64,000 nucleotides of DNA, taken from the NCBI RefSeq assembly GCF_013410745.1, contig NZ_JACCFY010000001.1, positions 62,001 to 126,000 on the forward strand. Reading direction: 5' to 3'. Positions 39,643 through 56,603 of the stretch are shown piece by piece (the stretch's first letter is position 1; every line of letters begins with the position of its first letter). This DNA is from Nesterenkonia xinjiangensis. GTDB taxonomy: Bacteria; Actinomycetota; Actinomycetes; Actinomycetales; Micrococcaceae. Below the pieces are notes generated by a model. It was not told the DNA's origin and ran no database searches. It was given only the letters and a program-made list of their open reading frames with translations. Both the position numbers and the translations under genes were made by a program.

Positions 39643-39650
39643 CAGGAGCC

Positions 39651-39680
39651 CTGACCTCCGACACCGCCGAGGCGGGTCAG
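39651..39680. terminator. Hairpin between the convergent import operon and purU
   Basis: Outer arms CTGAC/GTCAG (39651-39655, 39676-39680) and inner arms CCGCC/GGCGG (39664-39668, 39671-39675) can form a bulged stem over the purU stop codon. It is the only terminator candidate in the 34-nt convergent gap. Confidence 0.45.
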
Positions 39681-40555
39681 CGCAGCACCACGGTCTTGCT
39701 CCCGTGCAGGATGACCCGGCCCTCTGCGTGCCACCGGACGGCCTCTGAGAGGGCCTTGCACTCGGTGTCCCGCCCGGCTGCGACGAGATCCTCAGGGCCG
39801 TGGGTGTGGTCGACCTCCACGACTCGCTGAGCGATGATCGGGCCCTCGTCGAGCTCGCTGTTGACGTAGTGGGCCGTCGCCCCCACCGTCTTGACGCCCC
39901 GCTCGTAGGCCTGGTGGTACGGCTTGGCCCCCTTGAAGCTGGGCAGGAAGGAGTGGTGGATGTTGATGACGCGGCCCTCCATCCGTGTCGCCAGCGAGTC
40001 GCTGAGGATCTGCATGTAGCGCGCGAGGACCACCAGGTCGATCGACATCCGGTCCACGAGGTCCAGCAGCTCCTGCTCCGCCTGGGGCTTGGTCTCCCGG
40101 GTGACGGGGATGTGGAAGAACGGGATCCCGTGCCATTCGACGAGTCGCTGGTGGTCCGGATGGTTCGACACCACCGCCACGATCTCGATCGGCAGGTCGC
40201 CCTTTCGCGTGCGGAAGAGCAGGTCGTTGAGACAGTGCTCGAACTTCGAGACCATCACCAGCACTCGAGGCTTGGCGTCGGCGGCACGCAGAGTCCAGTT
40301 CATGCCGAAGCGCTCGGCCACGGGGCGCAGCGACGCCTCCACAGCGTCCAGGGAGGACTCCGCGGATGTGGACGACCCGCCGTCGGTGGTGTCGGCCCGT
40401 GCCCGCAGGAAGAAATGGCCGGCCCGCGGATCGTTGAACTGGGCGAGCTCCATGATGTTGCAGCCGTGGTCCAGCAGGACTTCGCTCACGGCATGGACGA
40501 TCCCCAGAGTGGAGGGGCAGTCCAGGGTCAGGATCATCCCACGGTCGCTGGGCAT
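39677..40555 (-). CDS. purU: Formyltetrahydrofolate deformylase
   Basis: 292 aa: an N-terminal ACT domain (LDCPSTLGIVHAVSEVLLDHGCNI), then the formyltransferase-like hydrolase domain with VMVSKFEHCLNDLLFR, the catalytic NIHHSFLPSFKGAKPYHQAYERGVK and GATAHYVNSELDEGPIIAQ. It releases formate and free tetrahydrofolate from 10-formyl-THF. It is the last gene of the sarcosine oxidase unit, where it keeps folate free for further demethylation. It starts inside the last codons of soxG (about 22-nt overlap), so it is co-translated. Confidence 0.93.
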   Translation of the reverse strand: MPSDRGMILTLDCPSTLGIVHAVSEVLLDHGCNIMELAQFNDPRAGHFFLRARADTTDGGSSTSAESSLDAVEASLRPVAERFGMNWTLRAADAKPRVLVMVSKFEHCLNDLLFRTRKGDLPIEIVAVVSNHPDHQRLVEWHGIPFFHIPVTRETKPQAEQELLDLVDRMSIDLVVLARYMQILSDSLATRMEGRVINIHHSFLPSFKGAKPYHQAYERGVKTVGATAHYVNSELDEGPIIAQRVVEVDHTHGPEDLVAAGRDTECKALSEAVRWHAEGRVILHGSKTVVLR

Positions 40556-41196
40556 GAGACCTCCTCAGGATGGTCGGACAAGGATGCGGGGCGGTGCTCG
40601 CGCGCAGCGTCGAGGAGCCACCGTGCCACGTAGTCGGCGAAGGAGGCCCGCGGCATCAGGCGGAAGCTGTGGAGCTCAGTGCGCCACAGCAGCACAGGGA
40701 CCGTGCTGAGGGTCGTCGCCACCGCTGACCCCGGGGGCAGCGCACGGGGGTGCAGATCGGCAGGGACCCCCTTCTCCAGCAGGCTCCTGGCCTGGGCGCC
40801 ACGGACCTCGATGATGGTCCGGTTCGCCGACAGGTCCACCGCCTGACCGGGCGCGTCCCCAAGGGCGGCCCCCAGGGCGGCGGCCAGCAGCGGGTGGCTG
40901 TCCGGGGGCGCCACGACGAGGAACTCGTCGGGTGCCAGCCAGAGCACGCCGACCCCGTCCGGGCCGCCGCGGACTTCGCCGACCTGCGCCGGCAGCCCCG
41001 CTCCTGTGGCGTCGGCGAGCGCGCGGTGTGCGGCGGTGCCGGGCATCGCGCGCAGACCGATCTGCGTGCTGAAGGGCTGTTCCTGCAGCGTGATCTGAGT
41101 CGGCGCCTGCGCGGAGCAGGACGCCAACGCCTCTCGGAGGTGGTCCAGCGGAGCTCGTCTCAGCTCGGCCGGGCCTCGGGTGTGGATGTCAGCCAT
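40534..41196 (-). CDS. soxG: Sarcosine oxidase gamma subunit
   Basis: 220 aa from the ATG at 41196 ([12 protein letters not shown]); it overlaps the soxA stop by 8 nt. SoxG-type GcvT-like fold: [75 protein letters not shown] and [27 protein letters not shown]. It is the small non-catalytic subunit of the heterotetramer. An extension upstream to 41274 would lie within soxA and is not accepted. Confidence 0.9.
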
Positions 41197-44095
41197 CGCG
41201 ACGGCTCCCTTCAGGGTCGAAAAGCACGGTGGGCGAGACGACGACCTCGACTGGTCGATCGTCGACGATCGCATGGAGCGTCTCCCCGATCCTGGTCCGC
41301 CCGCCGGTGATCAGCGCCAGCCCGAAGGTGCGCCCCAGCGCCGGGGAACGGTAGGAGGAGGTGACCCACCCCTCCGTGGGCACCGGTATCTTCGTGAGGT
41401 CGTTGTCCGGATCGATCAGCTGGGAGCCTTCGGGGAGCCGGAGCTGCTCGTCCCGAGGCAGCACCGAAACCAGGTGTTTGCGGTCTTCTCGCACGTTGTC
41501 CGGACGCGAGTACGAACGCCGACCGATGAAGTCCTTGCGGGACGAGACGACCCAGTCCATGCCGGCGTCCTGAGGGGTCACCGTGCCGTCGGTGTCCTGC
41601 CCGACGATGATGTACCCCTTCTCCGCGCGCAGCACATGCATGGTCTCGGTTCCGTAGGGAGTGATCCCATAGGGCGCCCCGAGCGCGGCGATGTCCTCCC
41701 AGACACGCAGTCCGTACCAGGAGGCCACGTTGACCTCGAAGGCGAGCTCGCCCGAGAAGGAGATCCGGCAGATCCGCGCGGGGATGCCGGAGGCGAGCAC
41801 CGTCTCACGGAAGGCCATGAACTCGAAGCCCTCCGCGGAGACGTCGAGATCCGGCGCCAGGGCCGCGATGACGTCTCGGGAGCGCGGACCCGCCACGGCC
41901 ACCGTCGCGTACTGCTCGGTCACCGAGGTGCAGGTGACGTCGAGCTCGGGCCACTCTGTCTGGAGCCACTCCTCCAACCAGTCCAGGACTCCCGCCGCCC
42001 CTCCGGTGGTGGTGGTCATCAGGTAGCGGTCGTCCTCAAGGCGGAGGGTCACGCCGTCGTCGAAGATCATCCCGTCCGGGGCGCACATCACCCCGTAACG
42101 GGCCTTGCCCGGCGCGAGCTTCTTGAAGGCATTGGTGTAGATCCGGTTAAGAAACTCGCCGGCGTCTGCGCCGCGGATCTCGATCTTGCCCAGCGTGGTG
42201 GCGTCCATGAAGCCGACTGAGTCGCGCACGGCGGCACATTCACGCAGCACAGCCGCATCCATGGTCTCTCCGGACCGCGGGAAGTACCAGGGCCGCTTCC
42301 ACTGGCCGACATCCTCGAACTCGGCCCCCTGCTCCAGGTGCCACGGGTGCATGGGCGTGATCCGCGCCGGGTCGAAGAGCTCTCCTCTCCGTGTCCCGGC
42401 GAGCGCGGCGAAGGTCACCGGCGTGTACGGAGGGCGGAACGCGGTGAGCCCGATGCCCGCCGGGTTCTCCTTGCCGAGCAGAGAGGCCAGGGTCGCGACC
42501 AGGGCGGCGCTGCTGGTCTTGCCCTGGTCATGGGCGGTGGAGATGGAGGTGTACCGCTTGACGTGCTCCACCGAACGCATCCCGGCTCCGGTGGCACGCA
42601 TGACGTCGGCGACGGTCTGATCCCGCTGGAAGTCCACGAAGTGGTTCCGGTAGGCCTCCGCGTCGTCTCCGTGGAGCGAGGGCACGAGCCACACGGGCCG
42701 GGCCGGCGCCAGCTGCTCCTCCTGGGCCTGCGGCACCTGGGCCGTGCGGGCGAACCCGGTGTCACTCGCGGCAGCCGCACCGGCCTCTGCGCCCTCCAGG
42801 AGGGCCCCCGCGAGGTCTGCTCGGCCGTTGATCATGCCGGCTGTCCGCTGGCCCGGCACGGGAGCGTCCGGCACGAAGGCCGCCAGCGCGTCGTGCCACC
42901 GGATCCGTCCCTGACGCTGGGTGTGCAGGTGGATGGTCGGGGTGAACCCCCCGGAGAGGGCCAGCACGTCTGCGTCACGGCTGAGGACCTCACCGGTGAG
43001 CGTGCCGTCCTCGGCGATCCCGCTGACCGTCACGGAGGCCAGGCCGCCGTCCTCGTCGGCGCCGGTGCCCACGACGACGGAACCGGTGTGGACGGGCACC
43101 CCCGCGTCCTGTGCCCGACGGGCCCGTGCGGAGAGCTCCGGGCGGGAGTCGACGACGGCGACGACCTGTCCCCCGGCCTTCCGAAGGTCCTCGACGACCT
43201 CGTAGGCCCAGTCTCCGGTGGTGGCGACGACCGTCCGATCCCCGACGAGCACGCGGTGACGATTCAGATAGGACCGCACCGCGCAGGCCAGCATGATGCC
43301 GGGGCGATCGTTGTCGGCGAAGACCAGGTGCCGTTCGTGGGCCCCGGTGGCCAGGACCACCTGGGCGGCGCGGATGTGCCACACGCGTTCCCGGGAGACG
43401 CCGTCGGGCCTCGGACCCTGCCCGTGGGCGGCGCGGCGCTCGACGGCGATCATGTAGTTCGCGTCGTAGCTGCCCACCACGGTGGTGCGTTGCAGGTGGA
43501 CCGCTTCGGACTCGTCCTGCAGCTCGCCCACGACCCCGCGCACCCAGGCATGCGCCGACTGGCCGTCGATGCGGGCGTCGCGCCGGGAGAGGAGCTCTCC
43601 GCCGGCTTCAGCTCGCTCGTCCAGCAGCATCACCCGGGCCCCAGATCGAGCGGCCTCCCGCGCGGCGACCAGCCCCGCAGGACCGGCGCCCACCACCAGC
43701 ACGTCGGTGTGGACGTGCTTGTGGTCGTAGTAGGCCTGATCCTGTCCGGGGTCGAGGGTGCCCAGTCCGGAGAGCAGCCTCACATCCATCCCGTCGACCA
43801 GCTCCACGCTCGGGGCGGTGAGCATCGACTCGGTGACCTGGTCAGGGTCCCCGGGTCTGACGGAGATCAGTGCGTTGGGCTCCTCGACGCCGGTGGAGAA
43901 GATCCCTCGGGGCCGCCGCCGGTAGATCGAGTCGCCGACACGCATGCGCCCGTTGGCGAGCATGGCGCTGGCGACGGTGTCGCCCTCGGCGCCGGCCAGC
44001 TCCTCTCCGTCCAGCATGAAGCGACGCGGCCGGGTGGTCTCGATCCGGGCATGCGGAGTCGTGCCTGCGGGGACTCGACGTGACGTGCTGGTCAT
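41189..44095 (-). CDS. soxA: Sarcosine oxidase alpha subunit
   Basis: 968 aa, normal length. Order: N-terminal SoxA_A3/2Fe-2S-like region ([21 protein letters not shown]), NAD-binding Rossmann domain ([30 protein letters not shown]), a second dinucleotide region, and a C-terminal GcvT-like THF-binding domain from about 570 ([52 protein letters not shown]). The heterotetramer oxidises sarcosine to glycine with H2O2, and passes the methyl carbon to THF as 5,10-methylene-THF. The ATG overlaps the soxD stop by 4 nt. Confidence 0.96.
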
Positions 44096-44394
44096 GTGTG
44101 TGGGCCTTTCCCCGGTGTGGACTCGGTCTCGAGCATCCGGCCGACACGGCGGACCTCGTGGAACTCATAGGTGGTGGTGTGCCGCACCGCGTCGAACCAC
44201 TTCCCGCAGCCGGTCGCGTGCATCCACCGTTCGGCGAAGAGGCCCTTGGTGTTGTCGCGGTAGAACAGGTAGCGGGCCCAGGCGGCGTCGTCCAGGGCGT
44301 GGGGGTCATCGGGGTAGGCGACCTGCGCCTGGCCGCCATAGGTGAACTCGTTCTCGTTGCGTGGTCCGCAGTGCGGGCAGGGGATCAGCATCAT
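44092..44394 (-). CDS. soxD: Sarcosine oxidase delta subunit
   Basis: 100 aa from the ATG at 44394 ([17 protein letters not shown]), preceded by GAAGAGG about 8 nt upstream. Zinc site: Cys6 and Cys9 of CPHC plus the His and Cys of [23 protein letters not shown] and [12 protein letters not shown] are SoxD hallmarks. Small structural subunit. It overlaps soxA by 4 nt; an open extension to 44472 reaches into soxB and is rejected. Confidence 0.92.
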
Positions 44395-44419
44395 GGTGGG
44401 CACCTCTTCGGGCAGGTGT

Positions 44420-45637
44420 TCAGTGGGCGACGGCGGCGGCGCCGTGTTCGTCGATGAGGAAGCCGGTCTCAAACCGTTCCAGGGAGAACGGTGCGTTCAG
44501 CGGGTGCGGCTCGTCATGGGCGATGGTGTGGGCGAAGGTGTACCCGGCGGCCGGAGTCCCCTTGAAGCCGCCGGTGCCCCAGCCGCAGTTGACGTAGAGC
44601 TGGTCGATGGGGGTCTTCGAGATGATCGGCGAGGCGTCGAAGGTCGTGTCCACGACTCCGCCCCAGGTGCGCAGCACATGGGCCCGGGCGAAGATCGGGA
44701 ACAGCTCGACCGCGGCCGCCATCTGCTCCTCGATGATGTGGAAGGCGCCACGCTGCCCATAGCCGACGTATTGGTCGATGCCGGCGCCCATGACCAGTTC
44801 GCCTTTGTGCGCCTGGGAGACGTAGACATGGACGTGGTTGGACATCACCACGGTGGGGTGGACGGGTTCGAAGAGCTCCGAGACGAGCGCCTGCAGCGGG
44901 TGCGACTGGATGGGCAGGGGAAGTCCCGCCAGCTCCGCGACCATGGAGGAATGTCCCGCCGCGCAGAGGCCGACCTTCCCGGCATGGATGCGTCCGCGGC
45001 TGGTCTCCACTCCGACCACGCGCTCCCCGTCCTTGAGGAACCCGGTGACTTCGCAGTTCTGGATCAGGTCCACGCCGAGCTCCGCCGCCCGCCGCGCCAG
45101 CGCCCAGGCCACATGGTCGTGCTTCGCGATGCCGGCCCGGGGCTGGTACGTCGCCCCCATCACGGGGTACCGGATGTCCTCTCCGATGTTGAGGATCGGG
45201 CAGACCTCCTTGACCTCCTCCGGAGTCAGCCATTCGGCGTCGACCCCGTTGAGCCGATTGGCCTCGACGCGCCGCACGGACTCGCGGACGTCTCCCAGCG
45301 TGTGGGCGAGGTTGAGCACTCCTCGCTGGGAGAAGAGGAAGTCGTAGTCGAGCTCCTCCGGGAGCTGCTCCCACATGCTCAGGGAGCGCTCGTAGAGGTG
45401 GGCGCTCTCGTCCCACAGGTAGTTGGAGCGGATGATCGCCGTGTTGCGCGCCATGTTCCCGCCGGCGAGCCAGCCGCGTTCCAGCACGGCCACGTTGGTG
45501 ATGCCGTGGTGGGCGGCCAGGTAGTAGGCGGTGGCGAGCCCATGCCCTCCTCCGCCGACGATCACCACGTCGTAGGAGGACTTCGGCTCGGAGTTCTCCC
45601 AGAGGAACTCCGGGTGCTCAGGCAGCTGTTCGGCCAT
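44420..45637 (-). CDS. soxB: Sarcosine oxidase beta subunit
   Basis: 405 aa flavoprotein. FAD-binding [18 protein letters not shown] near residues 24-41 and [25 protein letters not shown]. His173 in [12 protein letters not shown] occupies the place where the family covalently binds FMN. C-terminal [24 protein letters not shown]. It is the catalytic subunit where sarcosine is oxidised. The ATG at 45637 shares a base with the glyA stop (TGATG). Part of glyA-soxBDAG-purU. Confidence 0.96.
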
Positions 45638-46929
45638 CAGACGACCTCCTTCACGACGGATTCCATGTGGGGATGCAGCGGAAACCTCCCAGCCAGGGAG
45701 GAGACCCGTTCACGCAGCTCCGAGTGGTCTCTGGCGGTCAGCTGAGGGGCAAGAGCGAAGGCGATGATGTCGGCGACCTCGCGGAACTCCTCGTCTCCGA
45801 AGCCTCGGGTAGCCAGAGCCGGGGTGCCGATGCGCAGCCCGGAGGAGATCATCGGTGGTCGTGGGTCGAAGGGCACCGCATTGCGATTGACCGTGATGCC
45901 CACCTGATGAAGCCGATCCTCCGCCTCACGGCCGTCCAGCTCGGAATGGCGCAGGTCCACCAGGACCAGGTGCACGTCGGTCCCACCGCTGACCAGGCTG
46001 ATGCCGGAGGCTGCGACGTCGGGCCGCCGCAGCCGTTCCGCCAAGACCTGGGCGCCGTCGAGGGTCCGCTGCTGCCTGTCCCGGAACTCCGGGGTGGCGG
46101 CGCTGCGGAAGGCGACCGCCTTGGCGGCGATCACGTGCTCCAGAGGCCCTCCCTGCTGGCCGGGGAAGACTGCTGAGTTGATCTTCTTCGCGAGGCCGGC
46201 CCGGGAGAGGATCACACCTCCCCGGGGTCCGCCGAGGGTCTTGTGCGTCGTCGTGGTGACCACGTCGGCGTATGGGATCGGGCTGGGGTGGAGGCCCGCG
46301 GCCACAAGCCCGGCGAAGTGTGCCATGTCCACCAGCAGATAGGCTCCGACTTCGTCCGCGATGCGGCGGAACGCCGCGAAGTCCAGCTGGCGGGGATACG
46401 CGGACCACCCGGCGATGATCACCTGCGGGCGGTGTTCACGGGCCAGGCGGGCCACCTCATCCATGTCGATCAGATGATCGGACTCCCTCACCCTGTAGGA
46501 GACGGCATCATAGAGTCGGCCGGAGAAGTTCAGCCGCATCCCATGGGTCAAGTGACCGCCGTGGGCAAGGTCGAGTCCGAGGATCGTCTCACCGGGCGTG
46601 AGGAGGGCGGAGAGCGCCGCCGCATTGGCCTGGGCTCCGGAATGGGGCTGGACATTGGCCGCTTCAGCCCCGAAGAGCTCCCGCACACGGTCGATGGCGA
46701 TCTGCTCGACCACGTCCACGTGCTCGCAGCCGCCGTAGTATCGAGCACCTGGGTACCCTTCGGCGTACTTGTTGGTCAGCACCGAGCCCTGAGCCTCCAT
46801 CACGGCCGGCGAGGTGAAGTTCTCCGAAGCGATCATCTCCAGCGTGGTGCTCTGTCGCTCCCGCTCGGCGTCGATCGCCGCGGCGATGTCCGGATCCTCC
46901 TCACGCAGCGAGGAGATGGTGTCTGTCAT
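45637..46929 (-). CDS. glyA: Serine hydroxymethyltransferase
   Basis: 430 aa PLP enzyme. [36 protein letters not shown] at the start, the PLP Lys in [16 protein letters not shown], and [11 protein letters not shown]. It interconverts glycine and serine with 5,10-methylene-THF. In this operon it most likely runs toward serine, using glycine and the methylene-THF that sarcosine oxidase and dimethylglycine oxidase produce. A second glyA for biosynthesis is expected elsewhere. It overlaps soxB by one base; 65 nt separate it from the serine dehydratase gene. Confidence 0.95.
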
Positions 46930-46993
46930 AGGTGTCGCTCCTTGTCTGGTTCGAAGTTCTTGCGGCTTCCCCCGGCTGATCAGCGGCGGAGCT

Positions 46994-48418
46994 TCAGCAT
47001 TCGATGACGTTCACAGCCAACCCGCCCTGAGCAGTCTCCTTATACTTCGAGGACATATCCGCCCCCGTCTCACGCATCGTCACGATCACCTCATCCAACG
47101 AGACCCGATGCTGCCCATCCCCCATCAACGCCATCCGCGCCGCATTGACCGCCTTAGTCGCCGCAATCGCATTCCGCTCAATACACGGCACCTGCACCAA
47201 CCCCGAGATCGGATCACAGGTCAACCCCAGATTGTGCTCCATCGCAATCTCCGCAGCATTCTCCACCTGCTCCGCAGACCCACCCAAGACCTCACAAAGC
47301 CCAGCAGCCGCCATCGAAGACGCCGAACCCACCTCCCCCTGACACCCCACCTCAGCACCAGAGATCGACGCCTGCTCCTTATACAGCACCCCAATCGCCG
47401 CAGCAGTGAGCAAATACCGCACCACCGCCTCTTCACGATCCTCCGGCGCGATGAAACTGCCTCCCGGCCCATAATGGGTCGCATAGAACCCCACCGCCGG
47501 AATGATCCCCGCCGCCCCGTTGGTCGGCGCAGTCACCACCCGGCCACCCGAGGCGTTCTCCTCGTTCACGGCCAAAGCCACCAGATTGACCCACTCCTGC
47601 CAATACGCATACGACCGATCCGGATCCTGCTCCGTGAGCCGGGCATGCCACCCCGGGGCACGACGCCGGACGTTCAACCCACCCGGCAGCACCCCGGCGC
47701 GGCCCAACGCGGAGTTCTTACACTCCTCCATGACCTGCCAGATGTGCAGCACCCCAGCCCGGACCTCCTCCTCCGGGCGCATCACGGTCTCATTGGCCAT
47801 CATCACCTCAGAGACAGCCCGGCCGGTGCTGCGGCAGTGCTCCATGAGCTCGGCCGCCGTGGTGAAGGGGTGAGGGACCTCCGCCTCCGCGGACTCGACC
47901 ACCTCACCCAGGGAGGCAGCCTCCGCCTCGGTCACGGTGAGCACGAACCCTCCGCCGATGGAGAAATAGGTCTGCTCAGCCAACGGTGCGCCGGCACCAT
48001 CGACGGCAGTGAGGACCATCCCATTGGAATGCTGCGGCAGGAAGGTCAGGGGCCGCTGCACGAAGTCCTCCACCCGCAGGGTGACATCCACACCAGAACC
48101 AACACCGACCTGGGCACCGACCTGGACCGTCCCGGTGGCGCGCATATCCTCGATGCGCTCATCGACCTCCTCGGGCAGGATCGCCTCTGCGTCCCAGCCC
48201 TCCAGGCCCAGCAGCACCGCCTCGAACGTGCCGTGGCCCTGCCCCGTAGCGGCCAGAGACCCATAGAGATCCACCCGGACCTCCACCAGCCCACCCAGAT
48301 CCTTCTGAGCAGGCAGCTCCTCGACCACGAAACGACGAGCCGCACGCATCGGCCCCACCGTATGGGAAGACGACGGACCGATCCCGACACTGAACAGATC
48401 AAAGACACTGATCGTCAT
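46994..48418 (-). CDS. sdaA: L-serine ammonia-lyase, iron-sulfur, single chain
   Basis: 474 aa with beta and alpha parts fused. N-terminal [24 protein letters not shown]; [4Fe-4S] cysteines in [14 protein letters not shown] and [21 protein letters not shown]; the C-terminus VNVIEC ends in the Cys that enters the active site in this family. It deaminates serine to pyruvate. Its last two thirds use codons ending in G or T far more than the neighbours (TTG, GCG, GGG, ATT, AAT), suggesting a different history. The ATG overlaps the oxygenase stop by 4 nt (ATGA). Confidence 0.95.
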
Positions 48419-49620
48419 CGAGACGCCTGCGCCGCCGTCGCCTGCTCGTCGCGAGCCTCTTTCGGCGCACGCCAGCCGAGAGCTTCATACCACCAGTCGT
48501 GGAATTCACTGATGTGGTGCTCGCTGGGCACCAATGCCCCGCCCGAGGCGTAGACCTTCGAGGACATCGACGGCTGCGTCTGTTCACAGGCCTCGAAGTC
48601 CTGCTGATTGACCCGATGGAAGAGCTCCACGGATTTCGACACGTCCAGGGACCCTGCGCGGATCTGCTCGACCACCTCGGGCAGGAACAGCCAGTCGCAC
48701 TCGACGATGGTGCGGCTCTCCGAGACCGGGAACATCCGGTGGAGGATGACGTGGTCCGGAACGGTGTTGATGAAGACCTGTGGCCGGACGGTGATGGCGT
48801 AATACTTGCGTTCCTGGTCCGGCGCGATGGCGGGCAGTTCGGAGACCCCGGAGGAACCGTCGACGGTGAAGCCGTCGATCTCGCTGCCGAAAGCGGCTCC
48901 ATGGACCTCGCCGTTCTCGCGCTGAGAGGCGAGGCCGTCGGCGAACTCGGGGATGACCTCGGTCAGCTCAGGATGGATCGTGGCGCAGTGGTAGCACTCC
49001 ATGAAGTTCTCGATGATGAGCTTCCAGTTCGCCTGGACGTCGTAGGTCTTCGTCTCCCCGCAGGCGAGGTTCTCGATGCCGTAGTTGTCGATGGACTCCA
49101 CCTCACCGAAGCTGGTCCTGACCTCGCCGAGCACGGCCTGGTCGAAGTCCGGGGGAATGTCGGCCAGGCAGACCCACACATACCCCAGCCATTCGCGTAC
49201 GTGGACCGGTCGCAGGCCGTAGGCCTTGTTGTCGACATCGGGCATGGAGGTCAGATTAGGAGCGGCGACGAGCTCCCCCTCCAGCGCGTAGGTCCAGGCA
49301 TGATAGCCGCACTGCAGGGTCTTGCTGCGCCCCTGATCGGTGGTGCAGACTCGCATCCCCCGATGGCGGCAGACGTTGTAGTAGGCGGCGATGCCGGATC
49401 GTCGGGTCCGGACCACGATGATCTCCTCGCGGCCGATCGTCACCTTCTTCCATTCACCGGCCGAGGGCAGAGAATCAGCTCGGAGCACGCAGTTCCACAT
49501 CTTCTCGAAGATCGCTGCCTGCTCCTGGGCGAAGATCTCCGGGTCGGTGTAGGTGTCCCCCGGCGGTGTGGACCGCAGGGAGGAACCGGGAAGGGGCTCG
49601 TCCAGGTGATCGATGATCAT
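48415..49620 (-). CDS. Rieske oxygenase of the quaternary-ammonium type, probable glycine betaine monooxygenase
   Basis: 401 aa from the ATG at 49620 (GAGAGAA upstream). Rieske ligands Cys84, His86 (CRHRG), Cys104 and His107 (CGYHAWTY). The mononuclear iron site is in [15 protein letters not shown]: His211 and His216, with Glu208 where ring-hydroxylating oxygenases have the bridging Asp. Glu at this place marks the CntA/GbcA/choline monooxygenase/stachydrine demethylase subset. Between serine dehydratase, dimethylglycine and sarcosine oxidase genes, glycine betaine (to dimethylglycine plus formaldehyde) is the most likely substrate; proline betaine or choline are alternatives. An open extension to 49713 overlaps the reductase gene. 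Confidence 0.85.
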
Positions 49621-49664
49621 GGGGATGTGTTCTCTCTTTCCGGGGTCAGGGGCTCGCCAGGGGC

Positions 49665-50882
49665 TCAGGCGACCAGCACGTCTGCGGTGCGGATCTGCCG
49701 CTGCTTCCGCCACCGCTTGACCTCACGCAGGCGGTTGAAGCCGAGGATCCCCACCTCTGCGCCGTCACGCAGGTAGCTGAGCAGCAGGTCATCGGTCTCG
49801 ATGCTGCCGTCGACCACGCGCACCTCGTTGGCGTGGCTGATCCGGCCGGCGGCCTGGATCTTCACCTCGTACTGCTCGGACCAGAAATACGGTTCCTGGA
49901 AAGGGGCCGGTGAGGTGCCGGTGAGGGATGCTGAGAGGATGCCCGCCTGTTCGACGGCCTCCTGCCAATGTCCGACGGGACGCAGCCCCGACGCCTGCGA
50001 TGCCCACTGCGCGCAGTCCCCCGCAGCCCAGATGCCGGGCATGCCGGTGAATCCGGTGTCATCGCAGAGGATGGCCCCGCTGGTGGGGTCCAGGCTCAGG
50101 ACGCCGTCTCTCAGCCAGGAGGTGGCCGGAGTGGCGCCGATGGCGCAGATCACGATGTCCGCCTCCACCCTGTGGCCGTTGGCCAGCACCAGCTCCTGCC
50201 CACTGGGCACGTCCCGGACGGAGTCGGCCCGGCTCGCCGGCGCGAAACTGACACCGTGCCGCTCATGGAGCTTCCGCACAGCCTGGCCGACGGGGACTCC
50301 CAGTCTGGCGGTGCCGGGGTAGTCCTCTCCGGCGGCCACCGTGACCTCGGCGGCTCCTCGCTCCACGCAGGTGGCTCCCGCCTCGAGAGCCAGGAAACCT
50401 CCACCGACGATGGCGATGCGCTTGTTCTCGATCACTCGACTGCGCAGCGCCATCGCGTCGTCGATGTTGCGCAGCACGAAAGTGGCTCCCCCGGACAGCG
50501 GCAGACGGCAGGCCTGCGCTCCAGTGGCGACGACGACGGCATCAGCGGCATGGAAACGACCGTCGGAGGTGTGGACGCCCAGGGGAAACGCGGAGAGATG
50601 CTCGGCCGCGGCCCCGCCGAACCATGTCACGTCCAAGGGGTTCTCAGGGTCATCCAGCACGAGGTGCTCGAACGCCGCGGCCCCGCTGAGGAAGGCCTTG
50701 CTCAATGCGGGACGGTCATAGGCGGGGTGCAGCTCGTCGCCGAGGACGGTGATCGGACCGACGTGGCCGGTGAGCCGGGCCCCGCGTGCCACGTGGTAGC
50801 CCGCCAGACCTGCGCCGACGATCAGCAGGTGTCCTTCGGCGGGGAGGCCGGCGCTGGGGTTCTGCATCGAGGTGGTGTCCAT
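49665..50882 (-). CDS. FAD-dependent ferredoxin reductase (BphA4-like)
   Basis: 405 aa. FAD loop LLIVGAGLAGYHVARGAR, YDRPALSKAFL, NADH loop IAIVGGGFLALEAGATCVERG, the second FAD motif GIWAAGDCAQW and a C-terminal reductase domain (PFQEPYFWSEQYEVKIQAAGR). It shuttles electrons from NAD(P)H to the Rieske ferredoxin encoded just upstream. This makes a three-component oxygenase, unlike the pseudomonad GbcAB system, where one flavin/2Fe-2S reductase (GbcB) serves the oxygenase. The start overlaps the ferredoxin stop by one base (TGATG). Confidence 0.9.
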   Translation of the reverse strand: MDTTSMQNPSAGLPAEGHLLIVGAGLAGYHVARGARLTGHVGPITVLGDELHPAYDRPALSKAFLSGAAAFEHLVLDDPENPLDVTWFGGAAAEHLSAFPLGVHTSDGRFHAADAVVVATGAQACRLPLSGGATFVLRNIDDAMALRSRVIENKRIAIVGGGFLALEAGATCVERGAAEVTVAAGEDYPGTARLGVPVGQAVRKLHERHGVSFAPASRADSVRDVPSGQELVLANGHRVEADIVICAIGATPATSWLRDGVLSLDPTSGAILCDDTGFTGMPGIWAAGDCAQWASQASGLRPVGHWQEAVEQAGILSASLTGTSPAPFQEPYFWSEQYEVKIQAAGRISHANEVRVVDGSIETDDLLLSYLRDGAEVGILGFNRLREVKRWRKQRQIRTADVLVA

Positions 50883-51226
50883 CAGACCGTCACCCCCGGA
50901 GGCAGGTTCGGTGCGTCCTGGGAGAGCTCCACGAGGACGTCCTCGCCGTCGAGTTCGACGCTGTGGACTCGCACCCCGCGCTTCGCGGGCGGCTGATCGA
51001 CCGCTCCTGTGCGGAGCGAGAACGTGCTCTCATGCAACGGGCACTCCACCCTGCAGTCCTCGACCCACCCGGCGGCCAGAGAGGCATCCTGATGGGTGCA
51101 GGTGTCGTCGATCGCGTGCACCTGGCCGTCTTCGGTCAGGAACACAGCGATCGGGGGGCTCACTGCATCGATGCGCAGACCTTCCCCCGGAGTCAGATCC
51201 TGCAGGGAACAGACACGGAAACTCAC
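50882..51226 (-). CDS. Rieske [2Fe-2S] ferredoxin (BphA3-like)
   Basis: 114 aa. Ligands Cys43, His45 (CTHQDASL) and Cys62, His65 (CPLHESTF) are 17 residues apart, as in oxygenase ferredoxins; FSLRTGAVDQPPAKRGVRVHSVELDGEDVLVEL completes the fold. It carries electrons from the reductase to the terminal oxygenase. First gene of the minus-strand catabolic train; GTG start at 51226 with only a weak GGTGAT-type site. It diverges from iclR over an intergenic region full of GCAACA repeats. Confidence 0.92.
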   Translation of the reverse strand: MSFRVCSLQDLTPGEGLRIDAVSPPIAVFLTEDGQVHAIDDTCTHQDASLAAGWVEDCRVECPLHESTFSLRTGAVDQPPAKRGVRVHSVELDGEDVLVELSQDAPNLPPGVTV

Positions 51227-51252
51227 TTGCCATCACCACCGGTTTCACCTAG

Positions 51253-51295
51253 TGTTGCCTATAGAGCAACATGATTTGCTATGCGCAACATGTTG
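51253..51295. promoter_or_regulatory. IclR-type operator cluster between the Rieske operon and iclR
   Basis: Three nested dyads: TGTTGC/GCAACA (51253-51258, 51266-51271), TTGC/GCAA (51276-51279, 51285-51288) and the palindrome CAACATGTTG (51286-51295). GCAACATG occurs twice, at 51266-51273 and 51285-51292, 19 nt apart (about two helical turns). The best guess is binding of the adjacent IclR protein. Confidence 0.55.
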
Positions 51296-51364
51296 TGTGA
51301 TCAGTTTCACCGCACCTGCTGGTCACGTCAAGGGAATCCACCGATTGATTCGAGAGAAATTTTC

Positions 51365-52138
51365 ATGAAGCCAGAGAACCTGAGCCGCATCCAGTCCGTG
51401 GACCGCGCGGTCGAGATCCTGAAGGCCCTCAGCGAAGAGCCACACATGACGATCGCCGAGGTCGCGCGACACCTCGACGTCCACCGCTCCACGGCTTTCC
51501 GCCTCCTCGGAACCCTCGAGCTCCACCACCTGGTCGAACAGGAGTCGGAACGCGGCGCCTACCGCCTCGGCATCGGACTGCTGCGCATGGCGAACTCGGT
51601 CACCGCCCAGATGGACTTCACCAAGGACGCCCAGATCTGCTGCAACGCACTGGCGGCGCAGCTCAACGAGACGGTCAACATCGCCATCCTCGACGACGGA
51701 TACGCCGTGACCATCATCCAGGCCACCGATGACCAGATGCTCAGCGTCAGCCACCAGTACGTGGGGCAGCGCGGACCCCTGCATGCCACCTCGACGGGCA
51801 AGATGCTGCTCGCGCATGCGGAGGAGGACGAGTTCGACCGACTCGTCGAACGCGGCCTCGACAGCTTCACGGGCATGACGATGACCGACCCCGGAGTCTT
51901 GCGGACGGAGCTCGAGACCATCCGTCACCGCAACTGGGCCTCCGCCGTGGCCGAATGGGAGCCGGGGATCAATGCTCTGGCCGTGCCGGTCCGGGGCGAG
52001 GGCGGCCAGGTGAAGGCGGCCCTGTCCATCACCGGCCCCTCGTTCCGTCTCCCGGAGTCCCAGTTCGCAGAGCTCGCGACGCTGCTCAAGGAGCAGGCCC
52101 GCCCCTTGGAAGCGAGAATGGGATTCTTCGAGGACTGA
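51365..52138 (+). CDS. IclR-family transcriptional regulator
   Basis: 257 aa from the ATG at 51365 (MKPENLSRIQSVDRAVEIL), with GAGAGAAA upstream; the open extension to 51281 overlaps the operator cluster and is rejected. Winged helix: MTIAEVARHLDVHRSTAFRLLGTLELHHLVEQE. The C-terminal GAF-like effector domain shows VGQRGPLHATSTGKMLLAHA and AVPVRGEGGQVKAALSITGPSFR. It probably controls both the divergent Rieske-sox train and the downstream dimethylglycine oxidase gene; effector unknown, betaine or dimethylglycine being plausible. Confidence 0.92.
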   Translation: MKPENLSRIQSVDRAVEILKALSEEPHMTIAEVARHLDVHRSTAFRLLGTLELHHLVEQESERGAYRLGIGLLRMANSVTAQMDFTKDAQICCNALAAQLNETVNIAILDDGYAVTIIQATDDQMLSVSHQYVGQRGPLHATSTGKMLLAHAEEDEFDRLVERGLDSFTGMTMTDPGVLRTELETIRHRNWASAVAEWEPGINALAVPVRGEGGQVKAALSITGPSFRLPESQFAELATLLKEQARPLEARMGFFED

Positions 52139-52167
52139 ACATCCAGGGAATCTCCAGCGAAACCCCC

Positions 52168-52197
52168 TTGTGCTCCCCATCACTCGATTCATAGAGT
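52168..52197 (+). promoter_or_regulatory. Candidate promoter of the dimethylglycine oxidase gene
   Basis: TTGTGC (52168-52173) and TAGAGT (52192-52197), 18 nt apart, 51 nt ahead of the start codon. GGTTGCA just after it and GCAACA at 52230-52235 echo the repeats seen in front of iclR, suggesting the same regulator. Confidence 0.4.
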
Positions 52198-52247
52198 GGT
52201 TGCATCTTCACCACCACGTTTCTTAATCAGCAACACTTGGAGGATGC

Positions 52248-54791
52248 ATGTCCCAGCACGCTGCCCCACACGACCCCCGTGTGGTCATCATCGGCCTAGG
52301 AGTCGTCGGGGCCGCTGTCGCGGACGAGCTCGTCCTCCGCGGCTGGCACAACGTCACCGTGGTGGAACAGGGCCCGCTCTACGAGACCGGCGGGTCAAGC
52401 TCGCATGCGCCTGGATTCGTCTTCCAGACCTCTCCGAACAAGGCGATGTGTGAGCTCGCACAGCGGACCCTCGACAAGCTCGACGGTGCTGAAGTCGACG
52501 GTCGCTGGGTGATGAAGCGTGTCGGTGGACTCGAACTCGCCACCACGGCGGAACGGGAGCAGGAGCTGCGCCGCCGCCGGGACTTCGCTGCCTCCTGGGG
52601 TGTGCCCGCACAGCTTCTCGCCCCTCACGAGGTCGCAGAGATCTGGCCCGGGCTGGACACCACGCACGTGCTGAGTGCGTTGCACACCCCGACCGACGCC
52701 GTCGTCAAAGGTGCGCGGGCCGTGGAGTTCCAGGCACGACGGGCTGAGGCCGGAGGTGCTCGCATCATCAGCGAGACGCAGGTGACGGGCATCAGGAGGT
52801 CGGGCGAGCGGGTGACCGGCGTCGAGACCGTGCCGGTGGGGTCAGACCAGGAGCCCGACGTCATCGATGCCGACATCGTCATCACCTGCGCCGGGCTGTG
52901 GGGGCCGAAGCTGGCTCGCGAGCTGCTCGGCATGGACATCCCGATGCTGCCGGTCGAGCACGGCTTCGGCTTCAGCACTCCGGTGGACTCCTTGACCAGT
53001 CTCGACGAGCAGACCGAAGTGGCCCGGCCGATGATCCGGCATCAGGGCCACGGCGTGTACTTCCGCGAATGGGGCTCCCGGATCGCCATCGGCGCCTACG
53101 AGCACAGGACCATCCCAGTCGAGGATCATGACATCACCAGCCCCGAGGAGATCAGCGAACGGGGCGGCCAGGCCTCGATCCACCCCTTCACACGGCAGGA
53201 CTTCGAGGCCACCTGGACCGAGGTGCAGAACCTCCTTCCCGAGCTCCAGGACGCCGCCCTGGACGAGGCCGAGAGCTTCAACGGGATCTTCTCGTTCACC
53301 CCCGACGGCGGTCCACTCCTAGGACCTGTGCCCGGAATCGAAGGGCTCTGGATGGCCCAATCCGTGTGGGTGACCCAGTCCGCCGGCGTCGGACAGGTCA
53401 TCGCCGAATGGCTCACCACCGGGAACCCGGGGATCGACACCCATGGACTCGACGTCTCCCGGTTCGACCCGCTCCTGACCTCCCGGCGATCGGCCCGGGA
53501 ACTGGGTGAGGAGTCCTATGACGAGGTGTACGACATCATCCACCCCCGCGCCACCACTCTGCGCCTGCGCGGGCTCCGAACCTCCCCCTTCTACGAACGC
53601 CAACGCGGACGGGGCGCGGCATTCAGCTCTGCCAACGGCTGGGAGCGTCCCCTGTGGTACGAGTCCAATGCGATGCTGCCGGACAAGCGTCCCGCCGTCC
53701 CGATGCTGGGCGACTCACCCATGCCCACCCGAGACCAGTGGGCGGCGCAGTTCTGGAGCCCACTCGTGGCGGTCGAGGCACGGCGGCTCCGAGAATCGGT
53801 GGGACTGGTGGACATGTCGTCCCTGCCCCGGTGGGAGCTCTCCGGGAAGGGTGCGACAGACTTCCTCAACGGACTCGCCGACGACGGCCTGCTGAGCCGA
53901 CCGGTCGGCCGATCCGTGGGAAGCATCGTCTACGCACTGATGCTCGACGATCGGGGCGGCATCCTCTCAGACATCACCATCGCTCGCACCGGCGAGGAGA
54001 CCTACCACCTCGGAGTCAACGGGAGCCAGGACGCTGCGTGGCTGTGGGGCCGGATGCGCGAGCGGTCGATCGTGCTGCACCTGGCCGACGCCTCCTCCGG
54101 CTCCTGCGGACTGGGGCTGTGGGGACCCCAGGCCAGAGACGTGCTGGCTCAGCTCGTCGAGGAGGACATCTCCCACGAGGCCTTCCGCTTCTATCGGAGC
54201 CGCAGTCTCAGCGTGGGCGGGGTCCCTGTCCTCGCGATGCGGCTCAGCTATGTCGGCGAGCTCGGGTGGGAACTGTACGCACCCGCAGAGTTCGGGCGCT
54301 ATCTCTGGGACGCATTGATCAGCGCGGGCAAATCCCAGGAGATCCTGCCCGTGGGCCGCCGGGCCTTCGAGAGCCTCCGGCTGGAGAAGGGCATGCGGCT
54401 GTGGGGGGCTGACATGACCCGCGAACACACCCCGGCGGAGGCAGGGATCGAGTTCGCGGTGCGCGGCGCCGCACAGGAGAAGCTCAAGGAGCTCGGTGCC
54501 GATCGGCCGGCACGCCGTCTCGTCTGCCTGACCCTGGATGACCCTGCAATGGTCCTCATGGGACACGAACCTGTCTACCACGCGCAGGACCCCGAGGGGC
54601 GTCCCGTCGGTTACGTCACCAGTGCCGATCAGGGCTACACCACCGGCCTCTCCCTCGCCTATGCCTGGCTCCCCACGGAGCTCGCCGCCGAGGGTTCCGC
54701 CGTCGAGGTCTCGTACTTCGGCCGTCGGCTCCACGCCCATGTCGCGGCAGAGCCCGTCTTCGATCCCACCGCTTCACGAATGCGTTCCTGA
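52248..54791 (+). CDS. Dimethylglycine oxidase (FAD oxidoreductase fused to GcvT-like domain)
   Basis: 847 aa. N-terminal FAD fold [23 protein letters not shown] with the GxGxxG at 16-21, [18 protein letters not shown] as in Arthrobacter dimethylglycine oxidase, and [16 protein letters not shown]. The C-terminal half from about 430 is a GcvT-type folate domain ([26 protein letters not shown], and the ending [18 protein letters not shown]). It oxidises dimethylglycine to sarcosine, produces H2O2 and hands the methylene group to THF. GGAGG stands 5 nt before the ATG. It follows iclR and precedes mscR. Confidence 0.93.
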
Positions 54792-54831
54792 GACGCCCAC
54801 CTGCCCCTCATCTGCCATCACAGGAGTACCC

Positions 54832-55926
54832 ATGCCTCATACCGTCAATGCTGTCGTCGTCACCGCCCAAGACGCCCCAGCCACCCTGGAGAAGATCATC
54901 ATCCCCGACCCCGGCCCCGGAGAGGCCCTGGTGGACATCCTCACCTGCGGGGTCTGCCAAACCGATCAGCACTACCAAAAAGGCCTCATCGGCCAGAACT
55001 ACCCCTACCTGCTAGGCCACGAAGCCACCGGCCGCGTCACCGCCATCGGCGAAGGAGTCACCTCGATCAGCCCCGGGGACAAAGTCATCCTGAACTGGCG
55101 CGCCGTCTGCGCAGACTGCCGCGCCTGCCGCAAAGGCCAGCCCCAATACTGCTTCAACACCCACAACGCCACCCAGAAAATGACCCTGACCGACGGCACC
55201 CCCCTAGAACCCGCCCTAGGCATCGGCGCCTTCGCCGAAAAGACCCTGGTCGCCGCCGGCCAATGCACCCTCATCGAAGACACCAAAGAAGAGCACGACG
55301 CCGCCATCGGACTCCTGGGCTGCGGGGTGATGGCCGGCATCGGGGCAGCGATCAACACCGGTGAGGTGGCCCGTGGGGAGTCGGTGGCCGTGATCGGCTG
55401 CGGCGGAGTCGGCACCGCCGCCATCGCCGGAGCCCGCCTCGCCGGAGCCACCACCATCATCGCCGTAGACCTCGACCCCAGAAAACTCGACAAAGCCCGC
55501 CAGCTCGGCGCCACCCACACCGTGGAGGCAGGCAGCACTGATCCGGTAGAAGCCATCCGCGAACTCACCGGCGGATTCGGCGCCGATGTCGTCATCGACG
55601 CCGTCGCCCGCCCCGAGACCTACACCCAAGCCTTCTACGCCCGCGACCTCGCCGGCCGCGTCGTACTCGTCGGTGTCCCAGACCCCTCCTGGAGCGTGGA
55701 ACTGCCCATGATCGACATCTTCGGCCGCGGCGGAGCCCTGAAATCCTCCTGGTACGGCGACTGCCTGCCCAGCCGCGACTTCCCCATGCTGGTGGACCTC
55801 TACCGCCAGAATCGCCTAGACCTGGATGCCTTCGTCACCGAACGCATCCGCCTGGACCAAGTCCAAGAAGCCTTCACCACCATGAACCACGGCGACGTGC
55901 TGCGCAGCGTCGTCGAAATCGGCTAA
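54832..55926 (+). CDS. mscR: S-(hydroxymethyl)mycothiol dehydrogenase
   Basis: 364 aa from the ATG at 54832 (CAGGAG 6 nt upstream). Zinc alcohol dehydrogenase of class III type: catalytic Cys42 (CGVCQTD), His63-Glu64 (GHEATG); structural zinc Cys93, 96, 99 and 107 ([15 protein letters not shown]); NAD loop [19 protein letters not shown]. It oxidises the mycothiol-formaldehyde adduct to S-formylmycothiol. In this place it would remove the formaldehyde released by the Rieske demethylase. Codon use is odd: several CTA and many AAA and CAA codons, unlike the neighbours. An open extension to 54538 lies inside the oxidase gene. Confidence 0.94.
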
Positions 55927-55940
55927 GAGGAGTCCACCCG

Positions 55941-56603
55941 ATGACCACCACGGCACGCATCGAACATCTGATCACCGCAGGAACCTTCTCCCTGGACGGA
56001 GGAACCTGGGAGGTGGAGAACAACGTCTACCTCCTCGGCGATGACCAGGAAGTGCTCATCATCGACCCCGCCCACGACGCCGAGGCTGTGGCCCAGCAGG
56101 TCGGTGACCGCCAGGTCTTGGGCATCCTGCTCACCCATGGCCATGACGATCACATCCGTGAAGTCTTCGAGGTCCAGCGCAAGGTCGGGGGCCGCATCCA
56201 CCTCAACCCCGCCGATCACGTGCTCTGGGAGCAGGTCCACGCCCATGCCCTGCCTGAGGTGGAGATCTCCGACGGCGATGTCTTCACCATCTCCGACACC
56301 CGCCTGACCGCCATCCACACCCCCGGACACTCCCCCGGCTCCACCTGCTTCTACGCCGAAGACCTCCCCCACACCGACGGCTCCCGCGGCTCGGTGCTCT
56401 TCTCCGGGGACACCCTCTTCCAAGGAGGCCCCGGAGCCACCGGACGCTCCCACAGCAGCTTCGAGACGATCATCGAGTCCATCCGAGACCAGATCTTCAC
56501 CAAGCTCCCCGAGAACACCGAGGTCCACCCCGGCCACGGAGACTCCACCCGGATCCAGTCCGAGAAGCCCCACCTCCAAGAATGGGTAGACCGCGGACAC
56601 TGA
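55941..56603 (+). CDS. MBL-fold metallo-hydrolase, partner of mscR
   Basis: 220 aa. The metal motif is LLTHGHDDHIREV (HxHxDH), with HTPGHSPGSTCFY, LFSGDTLFQGGPGATGRSHSSF and VHPGHGDSTRI supplying the rest of the binuclear site. Glyoxalase II-like fold. It follows mscR by 14 nt, a pairing I know from many mycothiol producers; hydrolysis of S-formylmycothiol to formate and free mycothiol is a reasonable but unproven role. GAGG-type site ahead of the ATG at 55941. It ends at a strong bidirectional terminator. Confidence 0.88.
   Translation: MTTTARIEHLITAGTFSLDGGTWEVENNVYLLGDDQEVLIIDPAHDAEAVAQQVGDRQVLGILLTHGHDDHIREVFEVQRKVGGRIHLNPADHVLWEQVHAHALPEVEISDGDVFTISDTRLTAIHTPGHSPGSTCFYAEDLPHTDGSRGSVLFSGDTLFQGGPGATGRSHSSFETIIESIRDQIFTKLPENTEVHPGHGDSTRIQSEKPHLQEWVDRGH

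Follow-up and report, generated by a model that had tools for sequence, protein, structure and literature searches.

Which electron carriers serve a Rieske oxygenase that would act on a quaternary amine, and which amine would that be? The question is raised by three adjacent genes of Nesterenkonia xinjiangensis, encoding a Rieske-type ferredoxin, a ferredoxin reductase dependent on flavin adenine dinucleotide (FAD) and an oxygenase α subunit (table 1). They lie in a stretch of 64,000 nucleotides (nt), here termed the window, which comprises bases 62001–126000 of a 3.57 Mb single-contig genome that is 99.57% complete. A sequence-only reading of this DNA had placed the three genes here, with the ferredoxin and a BphA4-type reductase in the same train as the oxygenase, and had proposed a quaternary-amine demethylase of open substrate; coordinates and Pfam domains bear out the placement, and gene neighbourhoods support the proposal and narrow the predicted substrate to glycine betaine. 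Judging from sequence, we consider it likely that the three genes encode one enzyme system that demethylates glycine betaine. This compound is a widespread osmolyte and a source of carbon and nitrogen, and gbcAB is given as the oxygenase route for its aerobic breakdown (PMC12093977, PMC12478193; these and the other papers cited are drawn on for the parts of each that were accessible).

The oxygenase is counted from ATG 49620, which has a purine-rich stretch just 5′ of it; the mechanical open reading frame (ORF) begins earlier, at GTG 49713. With the start at ATG 49620 the numbering of the bridging residue as Glu208, already given by the earlier reading, is correct. Cys209 and Cys212 form a Cys-X-X-Cys pair, and the ligands of the mononuclear iron are His211, His216 and Asp341. 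All 79 relatives that were read (of 80, one, L112, was dropped for its short translation) share Glu208, the Cys pair and the ligands of both iron centres, so the glutamate is not a chance feature; the biphenyl dioxygenase BphA1 has Asp at the bridging position. Glu had been taken as the signature of carnitine, betaine and choline oxygenases, and it does mark the whole quaternary-amine group (CntA/YeaW, GbcA-like proteins and Stc2), but not demethylation in particular. Together with the Cys-X-X-Cys pair, which some group V members have at the mononuclear iron (PMC10952381), it gives the window oxygenase the sequence features of group V, the quaternary-amine oxygenases.

The three genes head a minus-strand train that runs from 51226 to 39677 (ferredoxin, reductase, oxygenase, sdaA, glyA, soxB, soxD, soxA, soxG, purU) and in which, by coordinates, neighbouring genes overlap or are separated by no more than 64 nt. 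The overlap is 1 nt between ferredoxin and reductase and 4 nt between oxygenase and sdaA, and 44 nt separate the reductase from the oxygenase; the train may form a single transcript. No σ70 consensus promoter was found in 39400–52400 and no Rfam match at the gathering score in 38000–60000, while the sole terminator-like site in a 13 kb scan is the operator palindrome discussed below (51252–51272).

The association of the oxygenase with these carriers recurs widely. A scan of 84,980 species genomes gave at least 593 pattern matches, of which 587 were confirmed and the best 80 kept, 78 of them from Actinomycetota; the controls were 40 arbitrarily chosen 20-kb stretches, taken from 12 genomes within the window's order and searched at the same thresholds. 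With carrier homologues accepted from 80 bits upwards, both carriers accompany 58 of these 80 loci, the ferredoxin alone two, the reductase alone three and neither 17; among the 64 loci flanked by at least 8 kb on either side, the figures are 48 for both and 13 for neither. The two carrier genes lie less than 200 nt apart in 50 of the 58 loci that have both, and the 40 control stretches contain no ferredoxin, reductase or oxygenase. A reductase of the GbcB/Stc4/YeaX/PaaE type is present at one of the 80 loci (L073, about 7.6 kb away, where the pair is present as well). This search was not blind, since it found such a reductase at seven of eight plasmid-borne GbcA-like/Stc2 loci; it also found one at two of seven short actinobacterial GbcA-like loci. 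None of these 15 loci has the ferredoxin, and one (L132) has a reductase homologue (31%). A close oxygenase (at least 480 bits) occurs in 17 of 297 genomes of the order, the window's own included, and Arthrobacter, Pseudarthrobacter and Sinomonas have relatives of it; the GbcA cut-off is passed in none of 296 genomes of the phylum.

Might another protein of the same genome be the true donor? A GbcB-type reductase elsewhere, the rival partner named in the sequence-only reading, was looked for genome-wide, and only PaaE was found. The genome has one FAD_binding_6 protein, whose frame contains, in addition, the better-scoring of two Fer2 hits; it scores 504.7 bits as PaaE (cut-off 420.8) and 133.7 against the GbcB model (cut-off 500), and its gene adjoins paaC and paaD, both over their model cut-offs, so a hidden GbcB was rejected. 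The weak second Fer2 hit (L004) was set aside as what reads as a xanthine-dehydrogenase-like FeS/FAD protein. The next-best genome match of the reductase reaches 62.9 bits, compared with 903 for itself, and is NirB-like (209 bits, cut-off 578, on a fragment). The window oxygenase is the sole Ring_hydroxyl_A protein of the genome, by a search that is blind to oxygenases with other catalytic domains. There are six Rieske domains, two of which belong to the trio; the other four proteins, by reading, are a 146-aa exported protein (L165), a 126-aa NirD-like protein (L166), a 521-aa FAD oxidoreductase with a Rieske tail (L167) and a QcrA-like protein (L168), and none reads as an oxygenase.

It is accordingly highly unlikely that the enzyme is a glycine betaine demethylase with another true electron donor and the adjacent carriers are passengers. 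Mycobacterial and some other relatives do keep the oxygenase without the pair nearby, yet the genes are coupled, the pair accompanies 58 of the 80 loci and shares an operator with its neighbours, and the genome holds neither a GbcB nor a second Ring_hydroxyl_A protein for the pair to serve. The distance matrices of oxygenase and reductase correlate at 0.68 over 61 loci, and at 0.84 over the 45 loci with all three, or 0.77 as a partial correlation given dimethylglycine oxidase. This is consistent with co-evolution, which is inseparable here from shared descent, and shared descent explains part of it.

Several relatives show other arrangements. At six mycobacterial loci (L089, L094, L098, L103, L106 and L115) the oxygenase stands beside dimethylglycine oxidase, and in most of them also choline oxidase, without the pair, and five of these six genomes have no such ferredoxin at 1e-15. 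In Mycobacterium sp. AT1 (L135) the pair adjoins a second oxygenase fragment, which shares 44% identity with the window oxygenase over 61 residues, and an operator-like site with 2 mismatches lies upstream. A Priestia megaterium plasmid (L117 12001–13155) carries an oxygenase of 40% identity whose neighbours include an FAD oxidoreductase, a SolA-type oxidase and a BCCT gene; a 330-aa FAD oxidoreductase lies 2.6 kb from it, and homology searches detected neither the pair nor a GbcB-type reductase nearby. In one genome of the window's family (G005; L013, L127) this oxygenase coexists with a GbcA-like one that has a GbcB-type reductase.

The substrate is suggested by the company that the oxygenase keeps. 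On the plus strand from 51281, divergent from the train, follow iclR and the genes for dimethylglycine oxidase, a mycothiol-dependent formaldehyde dehydrogenase and an MBL-fold hydrolase. Among the 80 loci, dimethylglycine oxidase is present in 49, SoxA in 18, SoxB in 15 and any of these three in 55, so that the co-occurrence with dimethylglycine oxidase, which it had been suggested to survey, is found. Choline oxidase occurs in 42 (a representative scores 704 bits to choline oxidase 2jbv), a betaine-aldehyde-dehydrogenase-like protein in 38 (representative 620 bits, just below the cut-off of 668.6), a ProV-type transporter gene in 19 and a BCCT gene in 11; at least one of dimethylglycine, sarcosine or choline oxidase, ProV or BCCT is present in 70 loci and none in ten. 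GlyA is found in 13, SdaA in eight, PurU in 18, mycothiol dehydrogenase in 25 and IclR in 60. In the 40 control stretches there is one BCCT gene and no dimethylglycine oxidase, SoxA, SoxB, choline oxidase, aldehyde dehydrogenase, ProV, IclR, GlyA, SdaA, PurU, mycothiol dehydrogenase or MBL gene. At nine loci (eight from Streptomyces, one from Nonomuraea) the mycothiol formaldehyde dehydrogenase is present and no dimethylglycine or sarcosine gene is over threshold in the stretch seen, which fits a release of formaldehyde by the oxygenase itself; in L041 dimethylglycine oxidase starts at the edge of the stretch. In several mycobacterial relatives, L094 among them, dimethylglycine oxidase, a sarcosine-oxidase-like protein, the oxygenase, an aldehyde dehydrogenase, a permease and a GMC oxidase are encoded in a row (partly by reading), an order that leaves the oxygenase with the step from betaine to dimethylglycine. 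The genome of N. xinjiangensis itself carries choline oxidase and aldehyde dehydrogenase beside a BCCT gene at 284156–289259, and has six BCCT genes altogether, as would suit an organism that uses betaine.

These neighbours suggest the following scheme. NADH would reduce the FAD of the BphA4-type reductase, and the Rieske ferredoxin would deliver electrons one at a time to the oxygenase's Rieske cluster. There Glu208, in the role that Glu205 has in CntA, may relay them across the subunit interface to the mononuclear iron; the oxygenase would be a trimer of α subunits, since the train has no β-subunit gene. O2 would be activated and one N-methyl group of glycine betaine hydroxylated, giving N,N-dimethylglycine and formaldehyde. 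Dimethylglycine oxidase and then SoxBDAG would pass the remaining two methyl groups to tetrahydrofolate, GlyA and SdaA would convert glycine via serine to pyruvate, PurU would recycle formyl-folate and the mycothiol dehydrogenase would oxidize the released formaldehyde.

The same neighbours could instead merely finish the product of an oxygenase for another quaternary amine (choline, carnitine, proline betaine or a plant betaine). We regard this as unlikely, although Phe206 is a residue of the group Va type (see below), the nearest solved fold is that of the proline-betaine enzyme Stc2, and a relative on a Rhodococcus plasmid, which likewise has Phe and falls on the CntA side, adjoins a BetT gene. 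A choline monooxygenase would be redundant, because choline oxidase and aldehyde dehydrogenase are encoded at 42 and 38 of the relatives' 80 loci, respectively, and both elsewhere in the window's own genome. No proline- or carnitine-breakdown gene is among the eight annotated recurrent gene clusters, and the neighbouring dimethylglycine oxidase requires a source of dimethylglycine.

The carriers and the fold bring aromatic compounds into view. Both domain types of a class IIB chain, a Rieske ferredoxin plus a glutathione-reductase-type FAD reductase, are present. The ferredoxin ligands (CxH-16-CxxH: Cys43, His45, Cys62, His65) are kept in 60 of 60 homologues, and the nucleotide-binding motifs of the reductase are conserved. 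The best match of the ferredoxin in the Protein Data Bank (PDB) is the biphenyl dioxygenase ferredoxin 2e4p, and it passes the model NF007422 for HcaC, the phenylpropionate-dioxygenase ferredoxin (124.8 bits, cut-off 113), while failing NF042948 (88.5 bits, cut-off 150). The reductase stays under the cut-off of NCBIfam HcaD (190.7 bits, cut-off 450) and matches the putative oxidoreductase 6tuk first, followed by putidaredoxin reductase, BphA4 and TodA. By sequence, the closest solved relatives of the oxygenase are, in order, Stc2, the Silicibacter protein 3n0q and CntA. Its AlphaFold model (29 sequences, mean predicted local distance difference test score 84.7), compared with VIA-align 2, lies nearest Stc2 (3vca; Z 35.8, root mean square deviation (rmsd) 2.9, 353 aligned, 30% identity), 3n0q (Z 35.4, rmsd 3.0, 354 aligned) and CntA (6y9c; Z 32.9, rmsd 3.0, 334 aligned, about 26% identity). 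Terephthalate dioxygenase is just behind (Z 31.8, rmsd 3.0, 340 aligned) and salicylate oxygenases are also close, so the fold alone cannot fix the substrate.

Such likenesses, and a Priestia relative annotated as an 'aromatic ring-hydroxylating dioxygenase', are what an ordinary aromatic ring-hydroxylating system lying beside betaine genes by chance has in its favour. It is disfavoured, and we consider it exceedingly improbable: the train lacks a β-subunit gene, no aromatic pathway gene was seen among the ORFs read in the window, the oxygenase has the bridging Glu and the Cys pair and its fold list is headed by Stc2, 3n0q and CntA. Betaine or choline genes stand beside 70 of 80 relatives, and dimethylglycine, sarcosine and choline oxidase genes are absent from all 40 control stretches; at the level of sequence this also goes against the aromatic-only substrate that had been raised at the outset.

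A common regulator would tie the two divergent gene groups together. The pattern TGTTGC-N7-GCAACA in the gap between the ferredoxin gene and iclR is the only exact match in the genome, and the IclR protein probably controls the ferredoxin and dimethylglycine oxidase promoters through this predicted operator. The pattern was taken from the window and then sought in the relatives, within 250 nt upstream of each gene and with up to 2 mismatches. It precedes the ferredoxin gene in 38 of 60 cases (0.3 expected from letter shuffles), iclR in 28 of 60 (0.2), the dimethylglycine oxidase gene in 24 of 57 (0.3) and the mycothiol dehydrogenase gene in nine of 24 (0.4), and so connects the genes for ferredoxin, regulator and dimethylglycine oxidase across the phylum. 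Counts for the oxygenase (8 of 79), GlyA (2 of 13) and SoxB (0 of 15) are low; shuffles give 0.1–0.4 overall. Over whole stretches, there are seven exact matches in 1.56 Mb of relatives versus none in 0.80 Mb of controls, 43 versus none with up to one mismatch and 205 versus 16 with up to two.

A number of results weigh against glycine betaine demethylation by this trio. Phe206 of the oxygenase, at the position of CntA Tyr203, is Phe in 79 of 79 relatives, which is the group Va type; CntA and OxyBAC likewise carry an aromatic residue there. According to the accessible parts of PMC7948474, the residue here divides group Va (aromatic; carnitine, choline and benzalkonium), tied to non-demethylating oxygenases, from group Vb (Asn; betaine and stachydrine demethylation). 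The plasmid-borne proteobacterial GbcA-like/Stc2 rows have Asn in seven of eight cases and Gly in one, the actinobacterial GbcA-like rows Asn in six of six; Tyr is found in YeaW and four distant rows. Phe206 argues against a simple transfer of the GbcA mechanism, and by itself it proves no function, because the Priestia and Rhodococcus rows and BphA1 also have Phe. Furthermore, with the GbcA model NF058607 the oxygenase reaches 211.7 bits, short of a cut-off of 670 that Stc2 and seven other proteins of the GbcA side likewise miss (411–528 bits), and in the tree it falls outside the 14-row GbcA-like/Stc2 clade (98/98). The ferredoxin passes a phenylpropionate-type model, as noted, and other aerobic routes of betaine demethylation exist (Bhmt, MtgBCD; PMC12478193).

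The survey and the operator bring weights of the same kind. Neither carrier is near the oxygenase in 17 of the 80 loci, four of them on short stretches. Sixteen genomes in which one or both carriers are absent near the oxygenase were searched in full, and a ferredoxin match at 1e-15 turned up in 11: in six of these the identity is 55–68%, two being the local ferredoxins of L099 and L109, while in five it is only 39–45%, and these are perhaps other ferredoxins. The remaining five genomes, all mycobacterial, have no match at this threshold, and the chain is therefore the usual and not the universal partner. Counts over the 80 loci are not independent, because these loci were the top scorers among 587 and some are closely related (Streptomyces, Lentzea), and the controls come from the window's order whereas the relatives come from the whole phylum and beyond. 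With up to one mismatch, the operator occurs at three places in the genome versus five for the reversed control pattern; with up to two, the window has three matches, not clearly more than chance, which gives a mean of 1.18, and 11 of 100 shuffles reach three. The iclR and ferredoxin operator counts overlap, because both genes often share one gap.

Membership of GbcA was rejected for the score, the separate clade and Phe206 in place of Asn. Where, then, does the oxygenase belong? The tree comprises 47 rows, including 24 hand-chosen from the 79 relatives; it has no fixed root and contains flagged long branches, and its GbcA side consists of GbcA-like rows and Stc2, with no experimentally proven GbcA among them. 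The window oxygenase groups with other actinobacterial rows in a clade of 22 (support 99/97), nested in a 28-row group (96/96) that adds one more actinobacterial row, Bacillota, Chloroflexota/Thermomicrobiota and the long-branched CntA side. We are somewhat inclined to think that a separate quaternary-amine Rieske lineage, widespread in Actinomycetota and with outliers in Chloroflexota/Thermomicrobiota and Bacillota, supplies the first aerobic betaine step there, and that it reached demethylation apart from GbcA, with a Phe206 pocket, a biphenyl-type two-protein chain and a dedicated IclR regulon. If so, the rule that an aromatic residue means no demethylation falls. The trio would exemplify how Rieske oxygenases swap partners in nature and would put the group Va/Vb residue rule to the test.

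How does the system compare with those already known? GbcAB/BmoAB of Pseudomonas, Chromohalobacter and Vibrio shares the predicted reaction, the bridging Glu, the Cys pair (in GbcA-like rows) and the dimethylglycine/sarcosine gene neighbours. It differs in that GbcB is one fused flavin and plant-type 2Fe-2S protein, where the window has two proteins, and in that GbcA, compared through GbcA-like rows and Stc2, belongs to another clade with Asn for Phe206, the window oxygenase scoring far under the GbcA cut-off. The Sinorhizobium meliloti stachydrine demethylase Stc2 is the nearest solved fold and likewise N-demethylates a betaine, but it stands in the Asn clade and the gene downstream of stc2 (L120 9217–10275) is of GbcB type, 37% identical to a GbcB-like protein. 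Carnitine monooxygenase (CntAB/YeaWX) has the bridging Glu, the Cys pair and an aromatic residue at the Tyr203 position; unlike the predicted demethylase it cleaves a C–N bond to give trimethylamine, uses the fused reductase CntB and is only about 26% identical in the fold alignment.

The BphA3/BphA4 and HcaC/HcaD chains resemble the window's carriers, the ferredoxin and reductase being 43% and 29% identical to BphA3 and BphA4 of Rhodococcus opacus, but they feed aromatic dioxygenases with a β subunit. A carbazole oxygenase of Nocardioides is an α-only enzyme with a Rieske ferredoxin and FAD reductase chain. The ferredoxin of plant choline monooxygenase is of the chloroplast plant type. Plant choline monooxygenase is also a Rieske oxygenase for a quaternary amine with a separate ferredoxin (PMC6157903), but it acts on choline and is biosynthetic.

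The nearest precedent is the GbcA-like oxygenase ACZ37596 of Sphaerobacter thermophilus, whose closest characterized relative is GbcA (31%) and for which a 2017 survey proposes as partners, by homology, a Rieske ferredoxin (ACZ40633) and an FAD pyridine-nucleotide-disulphide oxidoreductase (ACZ40632) (PMC5209329). A group V oxygenase with a class IIB chain thus has a homology-based precedent in print, although in the accessible parts of that paper it comes from a homology search of one genome, with no tie to betaine genes and no test. The sequence-only reading had suggested an undescribed variant: no experimentally described three-component glycine betaine oxygenase was found in the accessible open-licence literature, PMC12445004 among it, where absence from a search is not absence from print, but 'undescribed' must be softened because PMC5209329 lists like partners. 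The two-carrier wiring, familiar from degraders of aromatic compounds, has so far only been guessed at for quaternary-amine oxygenases.

Betaine catabolism has been noted in Arthrobacter and Corynebacterium (PMC12093977), and two Arthrobacter genome papers leave its first step open. For Arthrobacter sp. Rue61a, growth on betaine is given as '+' and the predicted pathway as 'incomplete' (PMC3534580), and for A. arilaitensis the genes for two of the three steps from betaine to glycine are stated not to have been identified (PMC2991359). As a marker gene for this step, the oxygenase could let gbcAB-based surveys of genomes and metagenomes count actinobacterial betaine degraders as well.

Table 1. 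Genes and predicted regulatory sites around the trio (positions in the window).
Feature	Position	Strand	Evidence and remarks
Formyltetrahydrofolate deformylase PurU	39677..40555	-	TIGR00655 332.9 bits, cut-off 285.95
Sarcosine oxidase gamma SoxG	40534..41274	-	PF04268 64 bits; true start probably within ORF
Sarcosine oxidase alpha SoxA	41189..44095	-	PDB 2gag (heterotetrameric sarcosine oxidase) 1361 bits; Pfam SO_alpha_A3
Sarcosine oxidase delta SoxD	44092..44472	-	Position between soxB and soxA plus sequence reading; homologues likewise placed in relatives; true start within ORF
Sarcosine oxidase beta SoxB	44420..45637	-	TIGR01373 616.6 bits, cut-off 529.45
Serine hydroxymethyltransferase GlyA	45637..46929	-	PF00464 533.5 bits; NF000586 601 bits, cut-off 335
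L-serine ammonia-lyase SdaA	46994..48418	-	TIGR00720 635.1 bits, cut-off 345.1
Rieske oxygenase alpha subunit	48415..49620	-	401 aa; Pfam Rieske + Ring_hydroxyl_A
BphA4/HcaD-type FAD-dependent ferredoxin reductase	49665..50882	-	Pfam Pyr_redox_2 + Reductase_C
Rieske-type [2Fe-2S] ferredoxin	50882..51226	-	GTG start; Pfam Rieske/Rieske_2
Predicted IclR operator TGTTGC-N7-GCAACA	51253..51271	none	Exact match in the 54-nt ferredoxin/iclR gap
IclR-family regulator	51281..52138	+	HTH_IclR + IclR_C; divergent
Possible weak operator	52217..52235	none	2 mismatches; directly 5′ of dimethylglycine oxidase gene; weak alone, stricter matches there in relatives
N,N-dimethylglycine oxidase	52248..54791	+	PDB 1pj5 dimethylglycine oxidase 753.1 bits, residues 9-846
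S-(hydroxymethyl)mycothiol dehydrogenase (formaldehyde removal)	54538..55926	+	TIGR03451 620.5 bits, cut-off 512.9, match from residue 102; true start within ORF
MBL-fold hydrolase	55941..56603	+	Lactamase_B; recurs near mycothiol dehydrogenase in 10/80 relatives

The layout in table 1 varies within the genus. In a Nesterenkonia metagenome-assembled genome (L036 6888–9072), purU follows directly after the oxygenase and the sda, sox and gly genes are inverted; the trio is thus kept while the downstream genes are rearranged.

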